A stretch of DNA of 64,000 bases from Hyphomicrobiales bacterium. GTDB taxonomy: Bacteria; Pseudomonadota; Alphaproteobacteria; Rhizobiales; Beijerinckiaceae. Location: the NCBI GenBank assembly GCA_027489955.1, contig JAIXYZ010000011.1:1-64000 (forward strand), read 5' to 3'. Positions 44,510-60,433 of the stretch are shown here, piece by piece. The notes below the pieces were generated by a model. It saw only the letters and a program-made list of their open reading frames with translations, searched no databases and was not told where the DNA came from. The position numbers and the translations under genes are program-made. The first letter of the stretch is position 1. Every line of letters begins with the position of its first letter.

Positions 44510-45487
44510 ATGCTCGTCTATCTCATCCGCCGCATCGCCCAGGCGATGCTGGTCATCGCGGTCATGGCAACGCTCGTCTTCTTCGCGGTCTATGCCATCG
44601 GCAACCCGATCGACGTGCTCGCCAGCCCGCAGGCCGACCAGATCGAGCTGGCCGCGATCAGCCAGCGGCTGGGCCTCGACCGCCCCCTGTGGGAGCAGTT
44701 CGGCATCTTCGTCTGGAACGCGCTGCGCGGTGATCTGGGCACCTCGTTCGTCTATGCCGAGCCGGCCGCAAAGCTGATCCTCCAGCGGCTCCCGGCGACC
44801 TTCGAGCTGGCCTTCACGGCGCTCGCCATCGCCGTGTTCGTGGGCATTCCGCTCGGCGTCTATGCCGGCCTCAACCCGGACTCCCTCGGCGGCCGGTCGA
44901 TCATGGGCGGCTCGATCCTCGGCTTCTCCCTGCCGAACTTCTGGCAGGGCCTGATGCTCATCCTGATCTTCGCCGTCATCCTGGGCTGGTTCCCGGCCGG
45001 CGGGCGCGGCCAGACCGCGACCGTCCTCGGCATCGAGAGCGCGCTGTTCACCCTGGACGGGTTGAAGCACCTGATCCTGCCCGCGATGAACCTGGCGCTC
45101 TTCAAGATGGCGCTCGTCATCCGCCTGGCCCGCGCCGGCACCCGCGAGGTCGCGCTGCAGGACTATGTCCGCTTCGCCCGCGCCAAGGGCCTCTCGCGCA
45201 GCCGCATCGTCGGCGTGCACATCCTCAAGAACATTCTGATCCCGGTCGTCACGATCCTGGGCCTCGAGCTCGGCTCGATGATCGCCTTCGCCGTCGTGAC
45301 CGAGACCGTGTTCGCCTATCCGGGCATGGGCAAGCTCCTGATCGACTCCATCGGCCGCCTCGATCGCCCGATCGTCGTCGCCTACCTCATGATGACCGTG
45401 GTGATCTTCGTCGTGATCAACCTGGTCGTGGACATCATCTACGCCGCGATCGATCCGCGCGTGCGTCTCTCGGAGGTCAAGGGATGA
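44510..45487 (+). CDS. ABC peptide importer permease (DppB type)
   Basis: A 325-residue permease with six membrane helices and a periplasmic loop. MLVYLIRRIAQAMLVIAVMA is the usual start; the ATPase-coupling EAA loop is seen in YVRFARAKGLSRSRIVGVHI. It pairs with the DppC-type permease encoded next, whose ATG overlaps its stop by 4 bases. The ORF frame begins exactly at this ATG. Confidence 0.95.
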   Translation: MLVYLIRRIAQAMLVIAVMATLVFFAVYAIGNPIDVLASPQADQIELAAISQRLGLDRPLWEQFGIFVWNALRGDLGTSFVYAEPAAKLILQRLPATFELAFTALAIAVFVGIPLGVYAGLNPDSLGGRSIMGGSILGFSLPNFWQGLMLILIFAVILGWFPAGGRGQTATVLGIESALFTLDGLKHLILPAMNLALFKMALVIRLARAGTREVALQDYVRFARAKGLSRSRIVGVHILKNILIPVVTILGLELGSMIAFAVVTETVFAYPGMGKLLIDSIGRLDRPIVVAYLMMTVVIFVVINLVVDIIYAAIDPRVRLSEVKG

Positions 45488-46416
45488 CCGACGCCACCGC
45501 CAACGCCACGCTGTCCCCGCCTCCGCCCGCGCTCGATGCCGGCGAGGCGCTGTGGAAGCGCCATGCGCTGAACTTCCTCAAGAGCCCGGCCGCCGTCATC
45601 GGCCTCGCCATCCTGGTGTTCATGATCGTGCTCGCGGTCGCCGCGCCGTGGCTGACGCCGCAGAACCCGTACGATCTCGCCCAGCTCGACATCATGGACG
45701 GCACGCTGCCGCCCGGCTCGGTCAACTCCACGACCGGCTACACCTACTGGCTCGGCACCGACGACCAGGGCCGCGACATGCTCTCCGGCATCATCTACGG
45801 CCTGCGCATCTCGCTCAGCGTCGGTGTCATCGCGACGCTGGTGGCGCTGACCATCGGCACCTCGCTCGGCGTCGCCGCGGCCTATGCGGGCGGGCGGTTC
45901 GACACGATCCTGATGCGCGTCGTCGACCTCCAGCTCTCGTTCCCAGGCATCCTGGTGGCGCTCGTCCTGCTCGCCGCCTTCGGCCGCGGCGTGGACAAGG
46001 TCATCCTGTCGCTCGTCATCGTGCAATGGGCCTATTACGCCCGCACCGTGCGCGGCTCGGCGCTGGTGGAGCGGCGGCGGGAATATATCGAGGCGGCGCG
46101 CTGCCTCGCGCTTCCCCGCAGCCGCGTCATCTTCCGCCATCTCCTGCCGAACTGCCTGCCTCCGCTGATCGTGGTGGCCACCGTCCAGGTCGCGCACGCG
46201 ATCGCGCTGGAGGCCACGCTCTCCTTCCTGGGCGTCGGCGTTCCGGTCACCGAGCCTTCCCTCGGCATGCTGATCTCCAAGGGCTACCACTACCTGCTGT
46301 CCGGCAAGTACTGGATCGCCACCTTCCCCGGCATCGCGCTCGTCATCGCCATCATCGCCATCAACCTGGTGGGCGACCGGCTGCGCGACGTCCTCAATCC
46401 GCGCCTGTCCCACTGA
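45484..46416 (+). CDS. ABC peptide importer permease (DppC type)
   Basis: A 310-residue permease. A soluble N-terminal segment with WKRHALNFLKSPAAVIGLAI leads to six helices; the EAA loop is EYIEAARCLALPRSRVIFRH and the region LEATLSFLGVGVPVTEPSLG near the C-terminus is a DppC hallmark. It forms a heterodimer with the upstream permease and receives the ATPases encoded downstream. It starts inside the dppB-like stop codon. Confidence 0.95.
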   Translation: MTDATANATLSPPPPALDAGEALWKRHALNFLKSPAAVIGLAILVFMIVLAVAAPWLTPQNPYDLAQLDIMDGTLPPGSVNSTTGYTYWLGTDDQGRDMLSGIIYGLRISLSVGVIATLVALTIGTSLGVAAAYAGGRFDTILMRVVDLQLSFPGILVALVLLAAFGRGVDKVILSLVIVQWAYYARTVRGSALVERRREYIEAARCLALPRSRVIFRHLLPNCLPPLIVVATVQVAHAIALEATLSFLGVGVPVTEPSLGMLISKGYHYLLSGKYWIATFPGIALVIAIIAINLVGDRLRDVLNPRLSH

Positions 46417-46427
46417 AGAGCGACGCG

Positions 46428-47417
46428 ATGAGCCACCCCGTTCTCGAGGTGAAGAACCTCTCCGTCTCCTTCGGCTCCCGCGAGGGCGCGCTGACGGCGG
46501 TCAACGACATCTCCTTCCACGTGGATCGCGGCGAGGTGCTCGGCCTCGTGGGCGAATCCGGCTCCGGCAAGTCCGTCACGGGCCTGGCCATCCTGGGCCT
46601 GATCGACGCGCCCGGCCGCATAGGCGCCAACTCGTCGATCCGGCTGGACGGGCAGGAACTCGTCGGCATGCCCGAGCACGAACTGCGGCGCCTGCGCGGC
46701 CGCAAGCTGGCGATGATCTTCCAGGACCCGATGACCACGCTGAATCCGGTCCTGCGCATCGACACGCAGATGATCGAGGCGGTCACCGCCCATGAGAACG
46801 TCTCCGAGCGCGCGGCCCGTGCCCGGGCGCGCGAGGCGCTGCAGCGGGTGGGCATCCCCTCGCCCGACGAGCGTCTCCTGGCCTATCCGCACCAGTTCTC
46901 CGGCGGCATGCGCCAGCGCGTGGCCATCGCCATCGCGCTCCTCCACCGCCCTGCCCTGCTGGTGGCGGACGAGCCGACCACGGCGCTGGACGTCACGATC
47001 CAGGCGCAGATCATCTCCGAGGTCCAGGAACTCGCCTCCCAGACCGGGACGGCGATGGTATGGGTGACGCACGACCTCTCGGTCGTCGCCGGCCTCGCCG
47101 ACCGCGTGGCCGTCATGTATGCGGGCCGCATCGTCGAGCAGGGCTCGGTCGTCGACGTGCTCGAGCGGCCGCTCCACCCTTACGCCCACGGGCTCATCGG
47201 CTCGGTGCCCAGCCGCAACAAGCGCGGAAGCCCCCTCGCCCAGATCCCCGGCATGACGCCCTCCCTGGGGCGCCTGCCCCCCGGCTGCGCCTTCCATCCG
47301 CGCTGCCCGCGGGCCACCGACATCTGCCGCGGCGAATGGCCCGAGGCGACCGCCTATCCCGGCGGCCGCACCGCCCGCTGCTATCATCCGCATCTGGAGA
47401 ACGAGGTCGCCGCGTGA
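46428..47417 (+). CDS. ABC peptide importer ATPase (DppD type)
   Basis: A 329-residue ATPase with all motifs intact: Walker A GESGSGKSVT, signature FSGGMRQRVAIAIAL, Walker B LLVADEPTTALDVT, and the H-loop VTHDLSVVA. The C-terminal oligopeptide extension has PPGCAFHPRCPRATDIC, whose four Cys resemble the Fe-S-binding pattern of Dpp ATPases. The start is ATG 46428 (MSHPVLEVKNLSVSFG), 11 bases after the permease stop. It pairs with the DppF-type ATPase. Confidence 0.95.
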   Translation: MSHPVLEVKNLSVSFGSREGALTAVNDISFHVDRGEVLGLVGESGSGKSVTGLAILGLIDAPGRIGANSSIRLDGQELVGMPEHELRRLRGRKLAMIFQDPMTTLNPVLRIDTQMIEAVTAHENVSERAARARAREALQRVGIPSPDERLLAYPHQFSGGMRQRVAIAIALLHRPALLVADEPTTALDVTIQAQIISEVQELASQTGTAMVWVTHDLSVVAGLADRVAVMYAGRIVEQGSVVDVLERPLHPYAHGLIGSVPSRNKRGSPLAQIPGMTPSLGRLPPGCAFHPRCPRATDICRGEWPEATAYPGGRTARCYHPHLENEVAA

Positions 47418-48421
47418 CGACGCCCGAACCGATTGTCGCGCTGGAGGACGTCTCCAAGCGCTTCGTGAAGCCGCTGGACACCGCCGAGAAGATCGGCCGC
47501 ATCTTCGGCGCCAACGTCAAGGAAGAGGTCGTCCGCGCCGTGGACGACGTGTCGCTCCAGATCGCGGAGGGCGAGGTCGTCGGCCTCGTCGGCGAGTCCG
47601 GCTGCGGCAAGTCCACGCTAGGCCGCGTCATCGCCGGCACGATGAACCCGTCAGAAGGGGCCGTGCGCTATCGCGGCGTCATCGTGGAAGGCATGAACGC
47701 CCAGGACCGGCGGCGCGCGGACCTTGCGATCCAGATGATCTTCCAGGATCCCATGGCCTCGCTGAACCCGCGCATGCGGATTGCCGAGATCATCGGGGAG
47801 GCGCCGGTCGTGCACGGGCTGGTCTCGCGGCGCGACGCGGAGGCGTACGTCGCCGAAACGATGCAGCGCGTCGGGCTCGATCCGTCCACGCGCAAGCGCT
47901 ACCCGCACCAGTTCTCCGGCGGCCAGAGGGCGCGCATCGGCATCGCGCGCGCGCTGGCGGTCAAGCCGGAAGTGCTGGTCTGCGACGAGTCCACGGCGGC
48001 CCTCGACGTGTCGATCCAGGCGCAGGTCATCAACCTGTTCATGCGCCTGCGCGAGGATCTGCGGCTGACCTACGTGTTCGTCAGCCACGATCTGGGTGTC
48101 GTCGAGCACATCTCGGACCGGGTGGCGGTCATGTATCTGGGCCGCATCGTCGAGCTGGCGCCGACAGACAGCCTCTTCTCCGGGCCGAACCATCCCTACA
48201 CCCAGGCGCTGCTCGCCGAGGTGCCGCGGCTCGAAGCGCGCAAGAAGAAGTTCTCGGCGCTGAAGGGCGAGATCCCGACGCCGCTCAATCCGCCTTCGGG
48301 CTGCCATTTCCATCCGCGCTGCCCCTTCGCCTTCGACCGCTGCAAGGTCGAGCGGCCGATGCTGAAGGAGGTCGCGCCGCGCTGGTCGGCCGCCTGCCAC
48401 CTCAACGACAAGGCGGCCTGA
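47414..48421 (+). CDS. ABC peptide importer ATPase (DppF type)
   Basis: A 335-residue ATPase. Walker A GESGCGKSTL, signature FSGGQRARIGIARAL, Walker B VCDESTAALDVS with catalytic Glu, and FVSHDLGVVEH are intact; NPPSGCHFHPRCPFAFDRC is the C-terminal Cys-rich motif. The start is a GTG at 47414 that overlaps the dppD-like stop as GTGA; no ATG is available before the Walker region at a sensible place. Its stop overlaps the ATG of the methyltransferase gene. Confidence 0.95.
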   Translation: MTTPEPIVALEDVSKRFVKPLDTAEKIGRIFGANVKEEVVRAVDDVSLQIAEGEVVGLVGESGCGKSTLGRVIAGTMNPSEGAVRYRGVIVEGMNAQDRRRADLAIQMIFQDPMASLNPRMRIAEIIGEAPVVHGLVSRRDAEAYVAETMQRVGLDPSTRKRYPHQFSGGQRARIGIARALAVKPEVLVCDESTAALDVSIQAQVINLFMRLREDLRLTYVFVSHDLGVVEHISDRVAVMYLGRIVELAPTDSLFSGPNHPYTQALLAEVPRLEARKKKFSALKGEIPTPLNPPSGCHFHPRCPFAFDRCKVERPMLKEVAPRWSAACHLNDKAA

Positions 48422-49167
48422 TGGCCCATCCCGCCTTGCGCCGCGTCGCCATGCGCGGCGCGGTGCTCCACGTCGCCGACGACCAGCCGACCTTCTGGGA
48501 CAGGGTGGCGCGCGACGCGTGGGAACCGGAAACGCTCGACTGGATGGCGCGCGTGCTGTCGCCCGGCGCGACGTTCTTCGATCTCGGCGCCTGGGTCGGA
48601 CCCACAGCGCTCCATGCGGCCGCGCTGGGCGCGGACGTCGTCGCGGTCGAGGCCGATCCGGCGGCGCTCGACCAGCTGTCGCGCAACCTCGCGGCCAATC
48701 CCGGCCTCGCGGCCCGCATCGCGGTCGTCCCCCGCGCCCTGTCGCGGGATGGGGAGCCGGTGCGCATGGGCGCGCGCCGCAAGCCCGGCGATTCCATGTC
48801 GAGCGCCCTCCTGGCGGATGGCGGCACCGGCTGGGAGGCCGAGGGCATCTCGCCTGCCGCCCTGTTCGACAGGCCCGTCGCCGGCCACGCCGTGGTGAAG
48901 CTGGACATCGAGGGCGGCGAGTTCGACCTGCTCCCTGCTCTCGTTCCCGCCCTGCCCCAGCCGGTCCGGGTGCTGCGCGTGTCGTTCCACCCCGCGCTTT
49001 ACGTTCGTGCGCGCGGGCTCGATGCCGGGGGCTTCGCGGAGGCGGTTGCCCGGGCGGTCGCGCCGCTCGCGGGCTGGCGCTGCGACCGGCCGGGCGATGT
49101 CGCCGAAGGCCTTGCGGCCGAGATCGCGATGGATTCGGTGGACCGGGTCTTCACGCGGCCGGACTGA
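48421..49167 (+). CDS. FkbM family methyltransferase
   Basis: A 248-residue S-adenosylmethionine-dependent methyltransferase. The SAM-binding motif I is FFDLGAWVGPTALHAAALGA, motif II VVAVEADPAALDQL, and the family signature VVKLDIEGGEFDLL lies at about residues 158-171. FkbM proteins O-methylate sugars or polyketides. It begins one base inside the stop of the importer ATPase gene, so it is co-transcribed with the importer, which is an odd pairing. Its 3' end overlaps the convergent cyclase gene by 17 bases. Confidence 0.9.
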   Translation: MAHPALRRVAMRGAVLHVADDQPTFWDRVARDAWEPETLDWMARVLSPGATFFDLGAWVGPTALHAAALGADVVAVEADPAALDQLSRNLAANPGLAARIAVVPRALSRDGEPVRMGARRKPGDSMSSALLADGGTGWEAEGISPAALFDRPVAGHAVVKLDIEGGEFDLLPALVPALPQPVRVLRVSFHPALYVRARGLDAGGFAEAVARAVAPLAGWRCDRPGDVAEGLAAEIAMDSVDRVFTRPD

Positions 49168-50854
49168 GCGCGGCCTCGACCGCATCGAGCGACCGGAAGA
49201 CGTGGACGGTCACCCGCTCGGCGCGGCCGCGCACGTCCGCATCGCGGCATTCGTCGGCGGCCAGCGACAGGCCCGACGCCGCGATGACCGCGTCCGACAC
49301 GACGAGCGTCGACCCGTATTCCTTGTTCAGGCTTTCCAGCCGGCTCGCGATGTTGACCGTGTCGCCGAGGGCGGTGAGCGCCGCGCGCCCGTCGACGGAC
49401 GTCGCGCCGACCCGGCCCAGGATCGCCTGGCCCTGGTGGATGCCGATGCCGATGCGCAGCCGCTCGGGCAGCGTGGCGGCGAATTCGGCATTGATGGCCT
49501 CGATGGCGCCCACCATGTCCCGCGCCGCCGCCAGCGCATCCCGCGCGCCCGCCCCGACGGCGGGATCGACGCCGAACAGGGCCATGATGCCGTCGCCCAT
49601 GAACTTGTCGACCGTGCCGCCGCGGTCGCGGATGGCCTGCGCCATCGCCTCCAGGTAGCGGTTCAGGATGAACACCGTGTCGTAGGGATAGAGCTTCTCC
49701 GACAGCGTGGTGAAGCCCCGCAGGTCCGCGAACATCACGGTGATGCGCCGCTCCGTGCCCCAGCGATACGCATCGCTGCCGGCGTTTGCCGGGACCTGCG
49801 CCACCGGCACGAGCGGACGCACGAGGAGATCTACGGCGGGCCTGATCTGGCAGGCGAGCCGCACGCCCTCCGGCGCGCCGATCCGGGCCAGGGCCGCCGC
49901 CTCCACCGGACCCGGCGGATCGAGCGCGGCGGCACCGTCGAGAACCTGAACGCGGCAGGTGGAGCACCGGCCACGGCCGCCGCAGACCGAGGCATGGGGT
50001 ATGCCGTTCGCCCGGGCGACGTCCAGCAGCGTCGCCCCAGGCCTCGCCTTCACCGTCCGGCCGCCGGCATAGGCGACGACGATCCCCGAGGACAGGCGCC
50101 GCAGGACAAGGCGCGCACCGACTGCGACGATGGCCGAAACGGCCAGCGCGGCGAAGGCGAGCGTGATCCCGTCGAGATAGACGTAGCTGGCCGCCACCAT
50201 CGTGTCCGTCAGCGCCGAAGGCCCGGCCGGGCGCGCAGCGACCATGCGCGCCGCGCTCGTCCAGCCGGCGATGGACAGCGCCGGGATCAGCACCGCAAGC
50301 CCCAGCAGCCACGGCGCGAAGGTCCGGTAGCGCGGCATGAGCTTCAGCCAGTGATGCAGGCCGATCATGGCATGCACCCACACCACGATGAGCAGCATGG
50401 ACTGGCTGAAGGCGAGGCTGGGCCAGAGCAGGCGCAGGACGTTGGAATAGCTGTAGTCGAACCCGTGCCACGTGCCGATGATGCGGGTGCCGACCACATG
50501 GCCCGCCAGCCAGAGCGGGATGGACAGGCCGAGCGCGATCTGCGCCGCCTCCCAGACCGGCATGCGCCAGGTGGAGCGCCGCGCCACCGCCCACAGACCC
50601 AGCCCGATATGGACGGCGAACGCCGCGTAGAGGACCAGGCCCGCCGGCGTGTTCCAGAACGCCGTCCGCCAGCCCTGGACAATCTCCATCGCCTCCACGG
50701 AGATCAGGCCGAGCGCATGGTTGGCGAAATGGGTGAGCGCGAAGGCAAAGAGCACGAGCCCGCTGGCCAGCCGCCACCGATGGCTGCTGCGCCAGGCCGC
50801 CGGAACCCGCGGAAGGCGGCGGCGCGCGCGCGATCCGGCCGCCGGGGCGCTCAC
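49151..50854 (-). CDS. Membrane class III adenylate cyclase with cytochrome-b-like anchor and [2Fe-2S] domain (CyaC-like)
   Basis: A 567-residue fusion of three modules. Residues about 25-265 hold six membrane helices with helix-embedded histidines (THFANHALG, VHIGLG, AGHVVG, WVHAMIGLHHW), like quinone-reactive b-type anchors. Residues about 270-345 are a plant-type ferredoxin domain (Cys 291, 297, 300 and 335; CGGRGRCSTC). Residues about 368-550 are a class IIIb cyclase with both metal Asp (MFADLRGFT, FMGDGIMALFG), the purine-site Lys and Thr, and the NxxxR pair in GDTVNIASRLE. The architecture matches Sinorhizobium CyaC, known as a redox-regulated cyclase with a di-haem membrane anchor. It starts with GTG overlapping the upstream cyclase stop and is the last gene of the operon. 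Confidence 0.93.
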   Translation of the reverse strand: MSAPAAGSRARRRLPRVPAAWRSSHRWRLASGLVLFAFALTHFANHALGLISVEAMEIVQGWRTAFWNTPAGLVLYAAFAVHIGLGLWAVARRSTWRMPVWEAAQIALGLSIPLWLAGHVVGTRIIGTWHGFDYSYSNVLRLLWPSLAFSQSMLLIVVWVHAMIGLHHWLKLMPRYRTFAPWLLGLAVLIPALSIAGWTSAARMVAARPAGPSALTDTMVAASYVYLDGITLAFAALAVSAIVAVGARLVLRRLSSGIVVAYAGGRTVKARPGATLLDVARANGIPHASVCGGRGRCSTCRVQVLDGAAALDPPGPVEAAALARIGAPEGVRLACQIRPAVDLLVRPLVPVAQVPANAGSDAYRWGTERRITVMFADLRGFTTLSEKLYPYDTVFILNRYLEAMAQAIRDRGGTVDKFMGDGIMALFGVDPAVGAGARDALAAARDMVGAIEAINAEFAATLPERLRIGIGIHQGQAILGRVGATSVDGRAALTALGDTVNIASRLESLNKEYGSTLVVSDAVIAASGLSLAADECRDADVRGRAERVTVHVFRSLDAVEAALSPAA

Positions 50855-52282: not shown

Positions 52283-52726
52283 TCAGGCGGACAGCTCCGC
52301 CAGCTTGGCGTTTGTGCGCTCCAGCCGCTTGGCGAGCTCGCGCATCACCGCCACCGACATCTGCGGGAACTGGCCCAACAGCTCCAGGAAAACCCGCTTG
52401 TCGATGCGCAGCGCCGTGACGTCGCCATCGGCGACGATGCTGGCAGAGCGCGGCGAGTCCGACAGAATGCCCATTTCGCCCAGGAGGTCGTTGGACGAGA
52501 ACTGCGCCACCTGCAGCGGCCCGTTCGGCGTCTGGATCACGACGTTGGCCTTGCCCTGGAGCAGCACATAGGCGGCGTCGGAGGGATCGCCCTGGGCGAA
52601 GAAATGCTGGCCGGAGGAAAACATCACGCGCTCGGAGGTGAAGGCGAGCAGCTTGAGCCTCGCGGGATCGATTTCCCTGAACATCGGCACCTGCCGGAGC
52701 GCCTGGACTTCCGTTTCGAGCGTCAT
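52283..52726 (-). CDS. Stand-alone cyclic nucleotide-binding domain protein
   Basis: A 147-residue protein made of a single CRP-type cNMP-binding domain; the DNA-binding domain of CRP/FNR regulators is absent. The phosphate-binding cassette is GEMGILSDSPRSASIV, keeping the Glu, Arg and Ser that contact ribose and phosphate, so cAMP or cGMP binding is likely. A C-terminal helix (VMRELAKRLERTNAKLAEL) would dimerise or contact a partner. Its ATG overlaps the stop of the ABC-like gene (ATGA), making translational coupling and physical partnership with that protein plausible (inference). Confidence 0.93.
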   Translation of the reverse strand: MTLETEVQALRQVPMFREIDPARLKLLAFTSERVMFSSGQHFFAQGDPSDAAYVLLQGKANVVIQTPNGPLQVAQFSSNDLLGEMGILSDSPRSASIVADGDVTALRIDKRVFLELLGQFPQMSVAVMRELAKRLERTNAKLAELSA

Positions 52727-55398
52727 TGGGCTGCCACCTCCTGAACCGTCCGGTCGCGGCGTCCCGGTCGATCCTCGACCGTTGCATCCGTACCGTCGAA
52801 CTTTATCACCATATCGAACGTGTCCGCGGCGCTCTCGCGCACGACCGCAATGAGCGAGGCCTGCGGACGCATCTCCACGATCCGCTTGAGCACCTTGGCG
52901 CCCTCCGCCTCGCCCAGCGCGGTCGTGGCGCCGTCGATCACCAGCAGTTCCGGGCGCCGCACCACGCAGCGCGCCAGGTTGACCTTGATGCGTTGCGCCG
53001 CGCTGAGCAACCGGCCCGATGGGCCGACCCGGTATCCAAGGCCGATGCGCTCCACCGCTTCCTTGAGGTCCAGTTCCGCCACGACCTCCATGATCTCGTG
53101 CATCACCTTGCGCTCGGCGTCCGCGACCCCATGCGCGATGCGGCCGAAGAGCAGGTTGTCCTTCAGCGAGACCGCGAGGTTCAGGGCCGCCGGATCGTGG
53201 AAGGCGACGGGGCCGTCCTCGCCGGACAATTCGCGGAAGCGGGCGCGCGCCTGCAGGAGGCGCTCCTCCAGTTTCGCATCGATCAGGCCGAGGCGATGGC
53301 GGGGCTCCACATAGGCCAGCGTCAGCCCGATCAGCCGCGCCTTCTCGCTGGCCTTGAGCGAGCGCTCGCCCTTGGAGGCGATGCGCCGCACGAGCGCGTC
53401 GAATTCGGGGATGTCGTCGGCCGCGATGAAGGAGAACTGGTCGAAGAGCGGATGGCCGGGCGGTAGGTCGCGGAAGATCTCGGTCATTTCCTGCGCGATG
53501 CGAAGGCCGATGGAGACGAGGTCCCCCGTCAGGTCGGTGTCGTCCAGCGCATCGCGGAAGGTCTGGTCCTCCATGAGGGCCGCCGGGCTCGCCGTGCCGC
53601 TGCGCGGGGCGCCGAACAGGATGTTCTCCGCCACGGTCGCCTGCCGGGTGAAGCGCTCCGGATCGAACGTCTCCAGCAGCCGGCCCTTCTCCATGCCCTC
53701 GAACCGCTCCTCCAGCTTGCGGCGGGCGAGGATGAAGCGCTCGATGTCCTCCTCGGGCGTCGCGGCGTCGATATAGCCGAGCAGGCCGAGCTGGTAGAGG
53801 TCACCCCGCATGCCGACGATCTCCAGCGCCTCGATGAGCCGGGCGTCGAGGTCGTGCGGCCCGGTGGCCTCGACCCACTCGTAATCCAGCCAGTCGAGCG
53901 TGGGGTCGTCCTCCGGGTTTCCCGTGCGCCGGGCCTCCAGCACGCGGCGCCGGTCCGCCTCCGCCTGCGAGCCCGGCTGCGGCGCCCGCCGCAGGCCGTA
54001 GACGAGGTTGTCGCGCACGGTGCCGGGAAACAGGACGGGGTCGGTGCCCGCATAGGCGATGTGCCGGCCGGCCGTGGCGTCGGTCATGCGCACCAGGTCC
54101 GTCTCGCCGAACAGGATGCGGCCGCCGAAGCCCAGCACCCGCCTGGACAGCGTCCTGGCAAGCACGCTCGGCGCCGGGCCGTCGCCGATCAGCGCCATTT
54201 GCACCGGCAGGTCCGTCTTGAGCGACAGGCCCTCGATGAGCACGCCATGGGCGTCGTAGACGTGCAGGTTCTCGATGACGAGCGGCCCCTCCAGCGGGCC
54301 TTCCACCACGGCGGACGGGTCCTGGATCTCCAGCGGGATCAGCGATTCCGGCGAGAACTGCTCCAGCACCTGCTCGTACTTCACCTGCACGTCCAGGCGC
54401 TGCTGGTCCCAGTCGATCAGTTCCTTGAGCGGCGGCGGCAGGTCCTTGTAGGCGGCGATGACCGCCACGAGCTGGCCGATATCCAGCCGGCCCTGGAGCG
54501 CGAGATAGCCGCCGATGGCGTAGAACAGGAACGGCGTGATCTGGGCCAGCAGGTTGTTCAGGAACTTCACCATGAACTTCCACTTGTAGATGCGGAAGCG
54601 CAGGTCGAAGAGGTAGTGGAGGCGGTGGCCGATCTCGGCCCGCTCCCAGCGGGTGGCGTTGTGGACGTGGACCGCCTCCATGCCGTCCACGATCTCGGCG
54701 ACCCGGCCGGCCAGCTGGCGCGAGGCGAGCTGGCGCTGCCGCCCCAGGCGGATCTGGACCCGCCGCAGCCGCGGGATGACCGCGAACTGGACGGCCACGA
54801 TCGAGCCCGCGATGAGCCCGAGCCACACGTTCTGGACCATGATGAAGGTCATGGCCGTGAGCGCCTGCGTCCCCAGGAAGAGCGGCTGCACGAACGCGTC
54901 GCCGATGAAGCCGCCGATGGGCTCCACCTCGTCCTTGATCATGGTCGCCGTCTCGGACGGCTTCACGCGCTTGAGCGTATCCGGCGTGAACCGCAGCGCG
55001 ATCGAGACGAGGTCGAAGCGCATCCGCCGGAGCATGCGCTCGCCGAGCGCGCCCTTGGCGACGTTGATCCAGTACTTGAAGGCGCCGTTGACCAGCACGA
55101 GCGCGAGGAAGAGGCCGGACAGCGCGAACAGGAACCCGACCCGCTCGAATTCGATGCCCTCGAACAGGACGACCTTGGCGCCGCCCAGGAAGGACGGCAG
55201 CGAGAAGCCGAAATCCAGGGCGCGCGCCGTCTGGTTGCCGTTCTTGAAGGCCCCGCCGGAGATCGCCTCGTTGACGATCCGCTTGGGCAGTTCCAGCGAC
55301 CAGAAATAGAAGGGCAGCTGCGCGATCACGACCGCGAAGATCACGAGCTGATCGCGCCGCGAATGCGTCCAGATATATCGGAAGAGGCTCTTGTCCAT
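52723..55398 (-). CDS. ABC-exporter-like membrane protein with degenerate, expanded nucleotide-binding domain
   Basis: An 891-residue protein. Residues about 10-330 form an ABC exporter-type six-helix domain (ALGERMLRRMRFDLVSIALR, ELIDWDQQRLDVQVKYEQVL after it). The ATPase domain runs from about 385 to 880, more than twice normal size. Walker A is replaced by LIGDGPAPSVLA (no Gly-Lys-Ser), the Q-loop Gln is lost (YAGTDPVLFPG), the signature is LSAAQ, the catalytic Glu is Gly (LLVIDGATTAL) and the H-loop His is missing (AVVRESAADTFD). The post-Q-loop motif occurs three times: NLVYGL (about 463), NILFGA (about 589), NLLFGR (about 746). It cannot be an ordinary ATPase. The start is ATG 55398 (MDKSLFRYI); the long upstream open frame is non-coding. 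Confidence 0.92.
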   Translation of the reverse strand: MDKSLFRYIWTHSRRDQLVIFAVVIAQLPFYFWSLELPKRIVNEAISGGAFKNGNQTARALDFGFSLPSFLGGAKVVLFEGIEFERVGFLFALSGLFLALVLVNGAFKYWINVAKGALGERMLRRMRFDLVSIALRFTPDTLKRVKPSETATMIKDEVEPIGGFIGDAFVQPLFLGTQALTAMTFIMVQNVWLGLIAGSIVAVQFAVIPRLRRVQIRLGRQRQLASRQLAGRVAEIVDGMEAVHVHNATRWERAEIGHRLHYLFDLRFRIYKWKFMVKFLNNLLAQITPFLFYAIGGYLALQGRLDIGQLVAVIAAYKDLPPPLKELIDWDQQRLDVQVKYEQVLEQFSPESLIPLEIQDPSAVVEGPLEGPLVIENLHVYDAHGVLIEGLSLKTDLPVQMALIGDGPAPSVLARTLSRRVLGFGGRILFGETDLVRMTDATAGRHIAYAGTDPVLFPGTVRDNLVYGLRRAPQPGSQAEADRRRVLEARRTGNPEDDPTLDWLDYEWVEATGPHDLDARLIEALEIVGMRGDLYQLGLLGYIDAATPEEDIERFILARRKLEERFEGMEKGRLLETFDPERFTRQATVAENILFGAPRSGTASPAALMEDQTFRDALDDTDLTGDLVSIGLRIAQEMTEIFRDLPPGHPLFDQFSFIAADDIPEFDALVRRIASKGERSLKASEKARLIGLTLAYVEPRHRLGLIDAKLEERLLQARARFRELSGEDGPVAFHDPAALNLAVSLKDNLLFGRIAHGVADAERKVMHEIMEVVAELDLKEAVERIGLGYRVGPSGRLLSAAQRIKVNLARCVVRRPELLVIDGATTALGEAEGAKVLKRIVEMRPQASLIAVVRESAADTFDMVIKFDGTDATVEDRPGRRDRTVQEVAAQ

Positions 55399-55428: not shown

Positions 55429-55623
55429 ATTGCCTTTCCGGCACCATGCGTCGCCACCGCCCGGGCCGCAAGCGCGGGCATCGACTTGCCCAATGGGAAG
55501 CGCAGCGCGAAAGCGTGATCGCCGGCGCGGCCGTTTCCGGGCCCGCGCGGACATGGGCCATGGACCGAAGGCCCCGCTTGCGTCTAGTATGGGGGCGGTC
55601 GCTGGGGTGGCGTGGGAGGCCGC

Positions 55624-56880
55624 ATGTTGGACCGCATGTCGGGGCAGCCCGCGCAGCGAGCTGCTCGCCCACGCGCCGGATCGCGCGTTCTGATCTACAG
55701 CCACGATACGTTCGGTCTCGGTCATCTGCGCCGGTCGCGCGCGATCGCGAACGCGCTCGTGGCCTCGGAGCCGGACACGTCCGTCGTCATCATCTCCGGC
55801 TCGCCGGTGATCGGCAATTTCGAGTTCGGCTCGGGCGTGGACTACGTGCGCGTCCCGGGCGTCACCAAACTGCCCAACGGCGACTACACCAGCCTCAACC
55901 TCAATCTCGACATCGACGACGCCACCTCCCTGCGCGAGGCGCTGATCCGGGAGACGGCGGAGCGGTTCGACCCCGACATCTTCATCGTCGACAAGGAGCC
56001 CACCGGCTTCCGCGGGGAGATCATGCCGGCCCTGTCGCTCCTCTCGGGACGCGGGGCGAGGCTCGTCCTGGGCGTCCGCGACGTGATGGACGATCCGGCG
56101 CTGCTCGTCCCCGAATGGGAGCGCAAGGGCGCGCTCGCCGCGCTGGAGGAGTTCTACGACGAGATCTGGGTCTACGGGCTCAAGGACATCTACGAGCCGC
56201 TTTCCGCCCTGCCTCTGTCCGACGCCGCCCTCTCCCGGCTGCGCTATACCGGCTATCTCCACCGCGAGATGCCGCAGGAATCCGGGCTGGCGCGCTATCC
56301 CAAGATCACCCGCGGCCCGTTCATCCTCGTGACGACCGGCGGCGGCGGGGACGGCGAGGACCTGATCGACTGGGTCATTTCCGCGTACGAGGCCGACCCG
56401 ACGCTGGAAATCCCCGCCTTGATCTGTTTCGGGCCGTTCCTCGGCCGGGACGCGCGGCGCCAGCTCATGGAGCGCGTCCAGCGCCACCCGAAGCTCGACG
56501 CCATCGCCTTCGACAACAAGATCGAGGTCCTGATCCGCAAGGCGGTCGGGGTGGTCGCCATGGGCGGCTACAACACGTTTTGCGAGGTCCTGTCCTTCGA
56601 CCAGCGGGCGCTCATCGTCCCGCGCTCGACGCCGCGGCTGGAGCAGACGATCCGCGCCCGGCATGCGGAGAAGCTCGGCCTCGTCACCGCGCTCGCCGAC
56701 ACGCAGATGGGCGATCCCATGCTGATGGCGCGCCATCTCCATGCCCTGCCGGGGCAGAAGCGCCCTTCGGAGGTCATGGTGCCCGGCCTGCTGGACGGAC
56801 TGACGGTGCTGCAGGAGCGCTTCGGGCGGCTGGCGGCCATGCCGCGCATGCCGACCCATGTCAGCGCGGCCGCGGAATAG
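55624..56880 (+). CDS. GT28/MurG-like GT-B glycosyltransferase
   Basis: A 418-residue cytoplasmic glycosyltransferase. The N-terminal half starts RVLIYSHDTFGLGHLRRSRA, with the Gly-His loop of GT-B enzymes that act on processive or lipid-linked sugars; the C-terminal half has VTTGGGGDGEDLIDW and MGGYNTFCEVLSFDQRALIV, the nucleotide-sugar pocket motif. Related proteins are annotated as predicted glycosyltransferases with unknown acceptor. GGGAGG lies 5 bases before the ATG at 55624. It is first of five co-directional genes for glycan synthesis and diverges from the ABC-like/cyclase operon. It is paralogous to the fourth gene. Confidence 0.87.
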   Translation: MLDRMSGQPAQRAARPRAGSRVLIYSHDTFGLGHLRRSRAIANALVASEPDTSVVIISGSPVIGNFEFGSGVDYVRVPGVTKLPNGDYTSLNLNLDIDDATSLREALIRETAERFDPDIFIVDKEPTGFRGEIMPALSLLSGRGARLVLGVRDVMDDPALLVPEWERKGALAALEEFYDEIWVYGLKDIYEPLSALPLSDAALSRLRYTGYLHREMPQESGLARYPKITRGPFILVTTGGGGDGEDLIDWVISAYEADPTLEIPALICFGPFLGRDARRQLMERVQRHPKLDAIAFDNKIEVLIRKAVGVVAMGGYNTFCEVLSFDQRALIVPRSTPRLEQTIRARHAEKLGLVTALADTQMGDPMLMARHLHALPGQKRPSEVMVPGLLDGLTVLQERFGRLAAMPRMPTHVSAAAE

Positions 56881-56902
56881 CCGGGCTGCCCGCAAGACCT
56901 CC

Positions 56903-58159
56903 ATGACCGAACCTTCCGCACGCCGGGCCGCGCGCCTCGCCATCGTCGTCAAGGGCTATCCCCGCCTGTCGGAGACCTTCATCGCCCAGGAGATCCTGGC
57001 GCTGGAGCGGCGCGGCATCGGCATCGAGATCTGGTCGCTGCGCCAGCCGACCGACCGCGCGGTCCATCCAATGCACCGGGACATCGCCGCCCGGCGCGTC
57101 TACCTGCCGGAATATCTCTATCAGGCGCCGCTGCGGGTCCTGCTGGGCGCCGCCTCGGCCCTGCGGCGTCCCGGCTTCAAGGCGCTGATGCGCACGTTCT
57201 GGCGGGACTTGCGGCGCGATCGGACGGCGAGCCGCGGCCGCCGCCTCGGCCAGGCCTTCGTCATGGCGCGGGAACTGCCCGACAGCATCCGCCATCTTCA
57301 CGTCCATTACCTGCACACGCCGTGCTCGGTCGCCCGCTATGCCGCGATCCTGACGGGGCGCGACTACACCGTCTCGGCCCATGCCAAGGACATCTGGACC
57401 AGCCCGGACTGGGAGATCGCGGAAAAGCTCGCGGCGAGCCGCTGGTGCGTCACCTGCACGAAGGCCGGCCATGAGCGTCTTGCCGCGCTCGCCCCGGAGG
57501 GCGAGCGGGTGTCGCTCGTCTATCACGGGCTCGACCTCTCCCGTTTCCCTCCGCCGCCGGAGGCGCGCCCCGCCCGCGACGGCTCCGATCCCGCAGACCC
57601 GGTGCGGATCATCTCCGTCGGTCGCGCCGTCGCGAAGAAGGGCTATGACGACCTGGTCGATGCCCTCGCCGCCCTGCCCCCCGACCTCGCCTGGAGCTTC
57701 GTCCATATCGGCGGCGGCGAACTGCTCGGCGCGCTCAAGGCGAAGGCGAAGGCCGCGGGGATCGACCATCGCACGACCTTCATGGGCCCCAAGCCCCAGC
57801 CCGACATCGTCACCATGCTGCGGGAGGCCGATCTCTTCGTCCTGCCGTCCAAGGAGGCCCGAAGCGGCGATCGCGACGGCCTGCCCAACGTCATCATGGA
57901 GGCCGCCAGCCAGGCCCTGGCGATCGTCTCCACCGATTTCGCGGGCATCCCGGAATTCGTGCGCCATGACCGGGAAGGCGTTCTCGTCCCGCCCGGCGAC
58001 TGGGAGGCGCTGGCCAATGCCATCAATCTGGCCGCCCGGGAGCCCGAGCGGCGCCAGGCGCTCGGCGCCGCCGCCTTCGCCCGCCTGCGCGCCGATTTTT
58101 CCATGAATGCCGGGATTGACGTCCTCGAGGCGCGCCTGCGCAGCCTGACGGGCGAATGA
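56903..58159 (+). CDS. GT4 family glycosyltransferase
   Basis: A 418-residue GT-B glycosyltransferase. VVKGYPRLSETFIAQEILAL is the start typical of exopolysaccharide GT4 enzymes; SAHAKDIWTSPDWEIAEKL resembles the acceptor side, and the C-terminal half shows ISVGRAVAKKGYDDLVDALA and the E-x7-E motif in EARSGDRDGLPNVIMEAASQ. The sugar donor is not predictable. It begins 22 bases after the GT28-like gene and one base separates its stop from the next ATG. Confidence 0.92.
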   Translation: MTEPSARRAARLAIVVKGYPRLSETFIAQEILALERRGIGIEIWSLRQPTDRAVHPMHRDIAARRVYLPEYLYQAPLRVLLGAASALRRPGFKALMRTFWRDLRRDRTASRGRRLGQAFVMARELPDSIRHLHVHYLHTPCSVARYAAILTGRDYTVSAHAKDIWTSPDWEIAEKLAASRWCVTCTKAGHERLAALAPEGERVSLVYHGLDLSRFPPPPEARPARDGSDPADPVRIISVGRAVAKKGYDDLVDALAALPPDLAWSFVHIGGGELLGALKAKAKAAGIDHRTTFMGPKPQPDIVTMLREADLFVLPSKEARSGDRDGLPNVIMEAASQALAIVSTDFAGIPEFVRHDREGVLVPPGDWEALANAINLAAREPERRQALGAAAFARLRADFSMNAGIDVLEARLRSLTGE

Positions 58160-58160
58160 C

Positions 58161-59285
58161 ATGGCGCGGGCCGCCATCCCCATCGCCTTCCACGCCCCGC
58201 TGAAGAGCCCCCGCTCGCCCGTGCCCTCGGGCGACCGCACCATGGCGCGCAACCTGATGGCCGCCTTGCGCCGCGCAGGGTTCCAGCCTGAACTCGCGAC
58301 GGACCTGACGACCCGGGAGCCGAACGGCGACGCCGATGCCCAGGCCGCCATCGCCGCCGCGGCCGCGCGCGAAACCGATGCCATCCTGGCCCGCTTCGCC
58401 CGCACGCCGGAGACCCGGCCCGCGGCGTGGTTCACCTACCATTGCTACTACAAGGCGCCGGACCTGATCGGCCCCGCCATCGCCCGGGCGCTCGCCATTC
58501 CCTACGCCGTGGCCGAGGGCTCCCGGGCCGCCAAACGCGCCTTTGGCCCCTGGGCCCTTTTCCACGCTGCGGCGGAGACGGCGCTGGACGCGGCCGACAT
58601 CCTGTTCGCGATGACCGCCCGCGACCGTCCGGCCCTGGACGCGGTTCGCCCGCCCCGGCAGCGGATCGTCGATCTCCCGCCCTTTCTCGATGTCGCCGGC
58701 TGGCCCGAACCGCCGCCGCGCACGCCAGCCGGTCCGCTCCGGCTTCTCGCCGTCGGCATGATGCGAGAGGGCGACAAGCTCGCCTCCTACGATCTCCTGG
58801 CGCAGGCGCTCGCCCTGTGCCCGGACCTCGACTGGCGGCTCGCCATCGTCGGCGACGGACCGGCGGCCGAGCACGTGCGCGCCCGTTTCCAGCCGTTCGG
58901 ACCGCGCGTGACCTTCCATGGCCGGATCGAGGATCGCGCAGCCCTGGCCGCGGCCTACGCCGACGCCGATCTTCTCGTGTGGCCCGCCGTGAACGAAGCC
59001 TACGGCATGGTCTTCCTGGAGGCGCAGCTCATGGGCTGTGCCGTCCTCGCCGGGAACGAGGGTGGCGTCGCCAGCGTCGTCGCCGACGGGCTGGCGGGAC
59101 GGCTCGTCGCGCCGCGCGACCCGGTCCTGTTCGCCGCCGCCCTGCGTGCCTTAGCGGACGACCGGGACGGGCTGCGGGACCTGGGCGCCACCGCGCGTCG
59201 CATCGTGCTGGAGCGCCATGGGATGGACGCCGCCGCGGCCACGCTCGATGCGGCGCTGCGGCCGCTGGTGGAGGCGGCGCGATGA
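58161..59285 (+). CDS. GT4-like glycosyltransferase
   Basis: A 374-residue GT-B enzyme. The N-terminus AFHAPLKSPRSPVPSGDRTM, with its conserved SGDR-type loop, and the middle YHCYYKAPDLIGP mark a distinct subgroup; the donor half has GDGPAAEHVRARF, and NEAYGMVFLEAQLMGCAVLA carries the E-x7-E motif. It follows the previous gene with one base between and overlaps the next gene by 4 bases, so all are translated from one message. Substrates are unknown. Confidence 0.9.
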   Translation: MARAAIPIAFHAPLKSPRSPVPSGDRTMARNLMAALRRAGFQPELATDLTTREPNGDADAQAAIAAAAARETDAILARFARTPETRPAAWFTYHCYYKAPDLIGPAIARALAIPYAVAEGSRAAKRAFGPWALFHAAAETALDAADILFAMTARDRPALDAVRPPRQRIVDLPPFLDVAGWPEPPPRTPAGPLRLLAVGMMREGDKLASYDLLAQALALCPDLDWRLAIVGDGPAAEHVRARFQPFGPRVTFHGRIEDRAALAAAYADADLLVWPAVNEAYGMVFLEAQLMGCAVLAGNEGGVASVVADGLAGRLVAPRDPVLFAAALRALADDRDGLRDLGATARRIVLERHGMDAAAATLDAALRPLVEAAR

Positions 59286-60433
59286 GCCTGAACGTGCTCA
59301 TCCACGTCACGCATCTTCTGGGCGTCGGGCATCTGGCCCGCGCCGCCGCCATCGCCCGCGCGCTCGCGGCGGCCGGGCACCGGGTCGTGCTGGCGAGTGG
59401 CGGCATGCCGGCGCCGCTGGTGCGCACCGGAGGCGCGCAGCTTTTGCAACTCCCTCCCGTGCGCAGCGACGGGATCGATTTCTCGACGCTGCTCGACAAG
59501 ACCGGCGCGCCGGCCGGTCCCGGCCTGTTCGCCGCCCGGGAGCGGGCGCTGGCGAGCGCCATCGAGAGCCTCCAGCCCGATGTCGTTCTCACCGAGCTCT
59601 ATCCGTTCGGCCGCCGCATGCTGCGGGCCGAGATCGAGGCGATGATCGACCTCGCCCTGGCCCTGCCACGTCCGCCGCTCGTGCTGAGCTCGGTCCGCGA
59701 CATCCTCGTCAGTCCCGAGGACCCCGCGAAGATCGCGCGCTGCAGCGCCGCCCTTGGCCGCTTTGACGCGGTACTCGTCCACTCCGATCCGCGCGTCGTG
59801 CCGCTGGAGGCGTCCTGGCCCGTGGACGCGGTGGTGCGGAGCAGGCTGCGCTACACCGGCTATGTGGACGAGGCGCAGGACGTGTCGCCCCTCGCCGCGC
59901 TCCCCGACGGCGCGGACGACAGGCAGGGCATCCTCGTGTCCGGCGGCGGCGGGCCGGCGTCGCTCCCGCTCTACCGTGCTGCCCTCGATGCGGCATCCCG
60001 CCTGCCCGGCAGGCCTTGGCGCATCCTTGTCGGTGGCGGCGTGCCGGAAGCCGAGTTCGCGGCGTTGCGGGCCGGCGCGCCGGCCCATGCGAGCGTCGAG
60101 CGCGCGCGGCCCGATTTCCGCGCGCTGCTGGCGCAGGCCGCGCTCGCCGTCAGCCAGGCGGGGTACAACACCGTCATGGACCTCGTTGCCGCCCGCACGC
60201 CCGCGATCCTCGTGCCGTTCGAGGCCGGACGGGAAACCGAGCAGCGCCAGCGCGCCGAGCTGCTGGCGCGCCACGGGCTGGCAAGCGTGCTGCCCGAGGC
60301 AGAGCTCTCCGGCGAGGCGCTGGCGCGGCTCGCCGGGGTTATGGCGGAGGCGCGCCCGCCGGCCTTCGCGCTCGACCGCAACGGCCTCGCCGCCACCGTG
60401 AAGCTGATCGAATCCATGGCGGCGGGCCGATGA
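59282..60433 (+). CDS. GT28/MurG-like glycosyltransferase, second paralogue
   Basis: A 383-residue GT-B enzyme of the same group as the first gene of the cluster. Matching motifs are LIHVTHLLGVGHLARAAAIA (Gly-His loop), ILVSGGGGPASLPLY and SQAGYNTVMDLVAARTPAIL; RSRLRYTGYVDEAQD corresponds to SRLRYTGYLHREMPQ in the first paralogue. The pairing suggests two similar transfer steps in one pathway. The ATG at 59282 overlaps the upstream stop; its own stop overlaps the deacetylase-like gene. Confidence 0.9.
   Translation: MSLNVLIHVTHLLGVGHLARAAAIARALAAAGHRVVLASGGMPAPLVRTGGAQLLQLPPVRSDGIDFSTLLDKTGAPAGPGLFAARERALASAIESLQPDVVLTELYPFGRRMLRAEIEAMIDLALALPRPPLVLSSVRDILVSPEDPAKIARCSAALGRFDAVLVHSDPRVVPLEASWPVDAVVRSRLRYTGYVDEAQDVSPLAALPDGADDRQGILVSGGGGPASLPLYRAALDAASRLPGRPWRILVGGGVPEAEFAALRAGAPAHASVERARPDFRALLAQAALAVSQAGYNTVMDLVAARTPAILVPFEAGRETEQRQRAELLARHGLASVLPEAELSGEALARLAGVMAEARPPAFALDRNGLAATVKLIESMAAGR

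Follow-up and report, generated by a model that had tools for sequence, protein, structure and literature searches.

What does an exporter of the ATP-binding cassette (ABC) type do once its ATPase domain has lost the residues that hydrolyze ATP? The question is raised by a 64,000-nucleotide stretch of DNA from a Hyphomicrobiales bacterium (GenBank assembly GCA_027489955.1, contig JAIXYZ010000011.1, positions 1 to 64,000 of the forward strand; this whole stretch is called the window here), which encodes a pseudo-ABC exporter of 891 residues (Table 1). Our preferred reading, to which we give about an even chance, is that this homologue of type IV ABC exporters has a nucleotide-binding domain (NBD) which no longer hydrolyzes ATP and now serves as a regulatory relay between a cyclic-nucleotide-binding (CNB) subunit and the membrane domain. 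A regulatory role of the domain had been suggested in an initial annotation of this DNA, and it is supported by the CNB partner, or the CNB fusion, that goes with the family.

In an alignment with members that keep the catalytic residues, the Walker A Lys of the query is replaced by Pro, the Q-loop Gln by Thr, and the catalytic Glu by Gly. The H-loop His is judged by eye to be replaced by Arg (VVRES as against ALHRA in others), the His column of the alignment being a gap for the query. The query does not match the Walker A pattern GxxGxGK[ST], and its glycine pattern is broken too. These four replacements had been listed in the initial annotation and stand; its phrase that every catalytic motif is lost was slightly too strong, because the Walker B Asp is retained in the query, as it is in 100 of 190 aligned family rows. 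Briefly, these motif counts were made on 196 aligned rows minus six of a paralogue group; proteins shorter than 780 residues were excluded from the alignment, and the resulting 190-row sample leans to close relatives and contains at least two doubled genes (L158/L201 and L166/L203). Lys is kept in 41 rows, Gln in 16, Glu in 32, and His in 18; the set of retained residues varies from member to member, and 135 rows keep none of the four. The orthologues, which it had been proposed to check, thus share the losses. Orthologues with intact Walker motifs, named at the same time as a sign of local decay, do occur in small number: all four residues are kept in two rows (L093 and L126), and GK followed by S or T is found in four rows, i.e., three genes. 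Judged from the aligned relatives, the catalytic loss is common to a conserved family and not a matter of local decay.

Pfam places ABC_membrane at residues 90-314 (3.4e-13), and ABC_tran covers the last part of the protein alone (residues 775-825, 1.1e-06). An AlphaFold model built from 53 sequences (predicted local distance difference test, pLDDT, 82.9; predicted template modeling score, pTM, 0.76) has fold matches spanning residues 1-883, SUR2 and KATP chains among them, and its NBD aligns with that of ComA (3vx4_A) over 223 of 239 residues at 2.5 Å (Z 25.0), with query residues running from 367 to 880. In the model, the domain is a single ordinary NBD fold that carries inside it a confidently predicted insert of ~255 residues; a wholly new NBD fold was rejected on the alignment with 3vx4_A. 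The insert modeled alone is predicted to be mostly helical (pLDDT 84.0, pTM 0.65), and when it was compared with the PDB by Foldseek the best E value was 1.1, with none at E ≤ 0.001, a result that does not show a new fold. The expanded domain claimed earlier is therefore correct as regards a repeat-built insert and incorrect as regards a domain rebuilt throughout; the single ordinary fold that had been taken as grounds for refuting the claim is present, yet its insert is made of related repeats. The model of the membrane domain has low-confidence breaks at residues 167-176 and 321-325, beside invariant residues; these are possible hinges or gates.

The motif (T/S)(V/L)xxN(L/I)x(F/Y)G, which in the initial annotation was placed near residues 463, 589, and 746, begins at residues 460, 588, and 744. 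Shuffled copies of the protein gave 0.0002 motif matches on average and two matches in 0 of 20000 copies, so chance does not account for the triple motif. When profiles of these segments (R1-R3), built from 92 non-redundant members, are compared with one another, the scores are 41.0 (91%) for R1-R2, 43.6 (94%) for R1-R3, and 85.5 (98.5%) for R2-R3, well above column-shuffled controls (40 each; top scores 17.4, 15.1, and 17.2 in the same order) and reversed-profile controls (top scores 19.9, 18.9, and 12.9). These profile comparisons support the view that the segments are true internal repeats, in agreement with the partial internal duplications proposed at the outset. The second halves of the repeats compare weakly (T1-T2 69%, T1-T2b 82%, T1-T3 80%, T2-T3 4%, and T2b-T3 1%), and only across the motif and the helices just after it can the repeat be called firm. 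Against profiles of four canonical exporters, strong matches come from the first NBD half and from repeat 3, repeat 1 matches strongly over its Q-loop part (96%), and repeat 2 matches only weakly (38%). A relaxed form of the motif is matched by copy 2 in 185 of the 190 rows, by copy 1 in 157, and by copy 3 in 166, which makes copy 2 the best kept; two positions, the Asn of copy 2 and the Gly of copy 3, are invariant in 190/190 rows. The distance between the post-Q-loop Gly and the signature is 328 residues in the query; in three canonical exporters encoded by this genome, the distance to LSGG is only 39, 44, and 39 residues. This spacer is 290-407 residues in the aligned family members (780 residues or more), every one of them long, and since it measures 332-336 residues even where Lys, Glu, and His are all kept (ten members), the expansion is independent of the catalytic losses.

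Relatives at E ≤ 1e-60 are found in 69 of 199 genomes of an order sample and in 96 of 289 of a class sample. In a phylum sample (E ≤ 1e-40), 26 of 299 genomes match; 25 of them are in the same class, and the sole match outside it, G578, is a membrane-only form. The named relatives, to which the named loci below correspond, are the best 80 of 587; A1 comprises 52 of these 80 and A2 45. Across 51 named relatives, the mean identity to the query is 67% in the membrane domain, the most conserved part, and 37-46% in the other regions. For the closest pair (88% identical), the ratio of nonsynonymous to synonymous substitution rates (dN/dS) is 0.157 overall and 0.063 in the membrane domain; within the NBD the first half, at 0.34, evolves fastest, and the values for the insert and the last part are 0.218 and 0.084. 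No internal stop is found in the order-sample matches, and one class-sample match has an internal stop. The same genome also encodes, on contig 12, a divergent paralogue of the 891-residue protein that likewise has no catalytic residues (L210:4748-7291), and five paralogue-like proteins from genomes of the same family (L159-L162 and L167) have no CNB nearby.

An equivalent of the CNB gene stands next door in 71 of the 78 named loci with room, and its match starts at the ABC stop in 49 of those 71. By profile search over 158 assessable members, the CNB is separate in 137 and fused in five. In 39 diverse members whose downstream DNA was fetched, it is separate in 28, fused at the C-terminus in 10, and absent in one; all 28 separate CNBs share the strand of the ABC gene, and their domains begin at offsets of -76 to +176 bases relative to its end. 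The two sets overlap (L193, L201, and L203 are the same as L164, L158, and L166), and their counts are not additive. Of 142 CNB domains, 120 have the phosphate-binding cassette in its strict form, GE...R[ST]A. Fused CNBs are seen in 15 rows, i.e., 14 genes. In the tree, the fused L204 and L205 lie beside L094 near the clade of the query, and those of the other fused rows that the tree contains fall in one distant clade; because of these separate places, the fusion may have happened twice. Two distant members have a Methyltransf_17 gene after the CNB gene (L093:10199-10687 and L098:10267-10758), and in one Methylobacterium member a cytochrome P450 gene (L116:9699-11168) is located where the CNB gene would stand.

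The membrane domain is also encoded without an NBD, by genes of ~320-435 residues (G166, G304, G578, and others, including copies on Roseobacter-group plasmids). We examined 11 such membrane-only loci. A profile search found no CNB in any of the 11, and an ABC-ATPase profile found no ATPase open reading frame (ORF) in nine; the two exceptions are an importer ATPase ~8 kb away in L270 and a 1011-residue ORF in L273 that is UvrA-like by eye. The loop and tree tests were made with 38 full-length rows picked by hand. Among these rows, 55 positions reach a conservation of 95% or more; at 46 of them the residue is kept in at least four of five members of the longer membrane-only group, and at 27 in at least four of five of the shorter group. 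In 38/38 full-length members the coupling loops measure exactly 31 and 41 residues; in the 11 membrane-only relatives they measure 24-31 and 28-40, whereas three control segments are of equal length in all 49 rows (38 full-length and 11 short). The identity of the loops to the full-length consensus is 0.15 and 0.09 in the short forms versus 0.61 and 0.53 in the full-length ones; for two membrane stretches it is 0.47 and 0.45 versus 0.76 and 0.73. Altered loops in the short forms are what lost contact with the NBD predicts, and this suggests that the NBD-like domain of the full-length members still acts on the membrane domain. In both trees, which are quick searches, the short form P0002 falls among the full-length rows inside a starred branch (99 in each), and in the first of them its neighbor, at 94, is the full-length copy from its own genome. 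In that first tree the remaining ten short rows also lie inside the full-length rows, but in the second five of them are at the midpoint root. A Phaeobacter plasmid copy and the G304 copy are both among copper-resistance genes. By annotation and Pfam, and by eye for L277, the membrane-only relatives in copper-resistance clusters are those at L270, L208, and L277, and a second, shorter membrane-only group (L272-L276), ~30% identical to P0003, has varied neighbors.

Starting from the motif losses, the CNB partner and its fusions, and the constant coupling loops as they stand in the sequences, we infer the ligand, the gating, the energy source, the ATP independence, and the substrate as follows. 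The CNB subunit would bind a cyclic nucleotide, whose source in this genome may be the neighboring cyclases, and would dock on the NBD-like platform; the change would be transmitted via the coupling loops, and the membrane domain would open or close. Movement of the substrate would be passive or gradient-dependent, as in the NBD-less, proton-driven SbmA. The substrate is perhaps a glycan or a glycolipid (perhaps for glycan export), as suggested by the divergent glycosyltransferase genes, the first three of which have equivalents in 56/75, 54/71, and 46/65 named loci with room (the neighbor tables leave out those of the 80 named loci whose flanks are too short). All this suggests an exporter-shaped gate that is controlled by a signal molecule and is not ATP-driven; a channel is possible. 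Most of this functional reading is built on the CNB gene, the fusions, and the membrane-only relatives, none of which the initial annotation had mentioned. A fuller version, which we are somewhat inclined to doubt, is that the protein is an ATP-independent, cyclic-nucleotide-gated transporter or channel derived from an ABC exporter, with a gating platform read by the CNB, and that the family preserves several of the steps from ATP-driven pump to NBD-free form, independently of SbmA.

The 891-residue protein is like the type IV exporters (MsbA, Sav1866, TM287/288, and the ComA NBD) in its membrane domain and one NBD fold and differs from them by the lost catalytic residues, the repeat-bearing insert, and the CNB partner. 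In SbmA/BacA (SLiPT), a membrane domain like that of ABC exporters works on a proton gradient without ATP, NBD, or coupling helices, and it has been proposed that an ABC ancestor lost these two parts, NBD and coupling helices (PMC13316013). The membrane-only relatives here are similar, being without an NBD and with altered coupling loops, whereas the model of the 891-residue protein keeps an NBD-like domain and coupling loops. SbmA_BacA in Pfam gave no match for the 891-residue protein (E 0.1) or for P0002-P0004 (E 0.001), and no SbmA chain is among the 10 PDB sequence matches of P0003. HetC is an exporter with an N-terminal CNB and a peptidase domain, whose CNB domain is needed for function and bound ppGpp in vitro and whose ATPase catalytic residue is essential (PMC10986499). 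The CNB is tied to an exporter in HetC as in this family, but here the CNB is separate or C-terminal and the ATPase motifs are lost, and the 891-residue protein does not have the HetC-type layout of N-terminal CNB, peptidase, and intact ATPase in a single chain. By these comparisons it is a member of neither the SbmA/BacA nor the HetC type. No description of this family was among the papers listed in the literature searches. The exporter fold, the CNB domain, and the loss of the NBD are each known already; the CNB-exporter combination, the repeat-built NBD, and the intermediate series were not found in the literature searched.

Several observations weigh against the relay and against the fuller version of it. 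Part of the family may still hydrolyze ATP, to judge from the ten of 190 rows in which Lys, Glu, and His are all kept, and ATP could still bind at a non-canonical site. By profile, the CNB was not found near 16 of the 158 members, i.e., six from Methylobacterium, L091, five of the divergent paralogue group, L126, L132, L136, and L138; the last four belong to the ten that keep Lys, Glu, and His, the other six of which have a CNB, and the overlap between missing CNB and retained residues is only suggestive. The strict cassette is absent in 22 of the 142 CNB domains, including all five fused ones of that set, although four of the ten fused CNBs of the 39-member set show it (L196, L201, L204, and L205). 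Counterparts of the window's two cyclases are present in no more than 8/71 and 8/68 named loci; given this rare adjacency and the ppGpp-binding CNB of HetC, the identity of the CNB ligand is uncertain. Of 75 named loci, 19 (12 of them from Methylobacterium) lack the first glycosyltransferase gene. In the window (44510-48421, +), in Ancylobacter, and in Sinorhizobium meliloti, genes of ABC importers whose ATPases are of the working type stand no more than a few kb away. The mildest short form, P0002, has nearly normal loops (31 and 40 residues). A full-length copy is also present in 11 of 11 genomes with a short ORF (G773, G375, and G336, with possible contig ends, were set aside; G578 has the short form only), and for this reason the short and long forms may act together. 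Finally, a tree with the full-length rows as one side is not rejected by the approximately unbiased (AU) test (p 0.234), so that the NBD may have been lost once or more than once.

The best of the alternatives, which we still consider unlikely, is that the NBD binds ATP at a degenerate site without hydrolysis, as an ATP- or energy-gated switch with the CNB as a second input. CFTR and the sulfonylurea receptors, ABC-exporter folds that serve gating or regulation with ATP binding kept, are precedents for such a switch; neither a CNB subunit nor a repeat insert is known in them, as against both in this family. The ordinary NBD fold of the model, the Walker B Asp of the query and of more than half of the rows, and the strong constraint on the last NBD part would all suit it, but the Walker A Lys is gone in 149 of 190 rows, the glycine pattern of the query is broken, and the N-terminal NBD half is just the part that evolves fastest. 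It is distinctly less probable that the protein belongs to a heterodimeric exporter of the TM287/288 or TAP kind, in which it would be the degenerate half and a partner would supply the working ATPase. Exporters with one degenerate site are reportedly known and canonical exporters are present in this genome; yet no canonical half-exporter is among the neighbors scanned (a partner may be encoded elsewhere), the conserved partner is the CNB, and the closest paralogue in the genome is degenerate as well. A scaffold for the divergently encoded glycosyltransferases, with no transport function, would account for the glycosyltransferase 28-like gene linked in 56/75 named loci; we hold it to be most improbable, for the membrane domain is the most conserved part and is also found by itself in a copper cluster whose annotation shows no glycosyltransferase over 19 kb, and the linked gene is missing in the other 19 loci. 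Local decay to a pseudogene, to which the lost catalytic residues could point, is rejected as hardly credible in view of the losses shared across the family, the near absence of internal stops (none in the order sample, one match in the class sample), the dN/dS of 0.157, the second motif kept in 185/190 rows, and the wide distribution in the order and class samples.

For the conversion of ATP-driven pumps to non-ATP transporters or channels, SbmA is the precedent found. In this family, living genomes contain near-complete motif sets and partial losses alongside a CNB-tied repurposed NBD and forms with the membrane domain alone, which makes both the sequence of changes and the gating testable. 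Alphaproteobacterial genes annotated as "ABC transporter ATP-binding protein", including one in Sinorhizobium meliloti, may not hydrolyze ATP, and the neighboring "Crp/Fnr family transcriptional regulator" may be a subunit of a membrane protein and not a transcription factor.

Table 1. Features of the pseudo-ABC exporter gene and its neighbors in the window
Feature	Position	Strand	Basis or remark
Fer2 ferredoxin-type + class III cyclase protein, 567 aa	49151..50854	-	Pfam
Class III adenylate/guanylate cyclase, 459 aa	50851..52230	-	Pfam
CNB partner, 147 aa, CNB domain only in Pfam (3.3e-19), cassette GEMGILSDSPRSAS	52283..52726	-	start overlaps ABC stop (ATGA)
Pseudo-ABC exporter, 891 aa	52723..55398	-	ATG at 55398, stop at 52723
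Repeat 3 + NBD fold C-terminal half, residues 725-880	52759..53226	-	model, profiles
H-loop position, residues 848-856, SLIAVVRES, His lost	52831..52857	-	by eye
Walker B + D-loop position, residues 816-829, Asp kept, catalytic Glu to Gly	52912..52953	-	
Motif copy 3 SLKDNLLFG, residues 744-752	53143..53169	-	
Insert, residues 471-724, repeat 1 tail + repeat 2, mostly helical (predicted)	53227..53988	-	
Motif copy 2 TVAENILFG, residues 588-596	53611..53637	-	
NBD fold, N-terminal half, residues 363-470	53989..54312	-	model; profile match to four canonical exporters
Motif copy 1 TVRDNLVYG, residues 460-468	53995..54021	-	
Q-loop position, residues 447-459, Gln to Thr	54022..54060	-	alignment
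Walker A position, residues 402-415, ALIGDGPAPSVLAR, Lys lost	54154..54195	-	alignment
Type IV exporter membrane domain, residues 1-350	54349..55398	-	AlphaFold model, fold matches
Glycosyltransferase 28-like, divergent gene	55612..56880	+	weak Pfam match, at cut-off
Glycosyltransferase, group 1 type	56858..58159	+	
Glycosyltransferase, group 1 type	58161..59285	+	
Second glycosyltransferase 28-like gene	59285..60433	+	start approximate

Two further loci may be compared with the neighborhood in Table 1. In Ancylobacter (L112), a CNB gene and a Fer2-cyclase gene follow the ABC gene (the cyclase Pfam match is below the cut-off) and a polysaccharide lyase gene precedes it. In S. meliloti, the member annotated as an ATP-binding protein is followed by the gene annotated as the Crp/Fnr regulator, with a glycosyltransferase and methyltransferases nearby. 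The N-terminus of the Fer2-cyclase of the window (49151-50854, -) looks membrane-bound by eye, perhaps that of a redox-linked cyclase adjoining the CNB gene. The importers near a family member in three lineages, in the window and at L112:12005-15800 and L271:1-4340, are oligopeptide-type or so annotated; their nearness may be chance.

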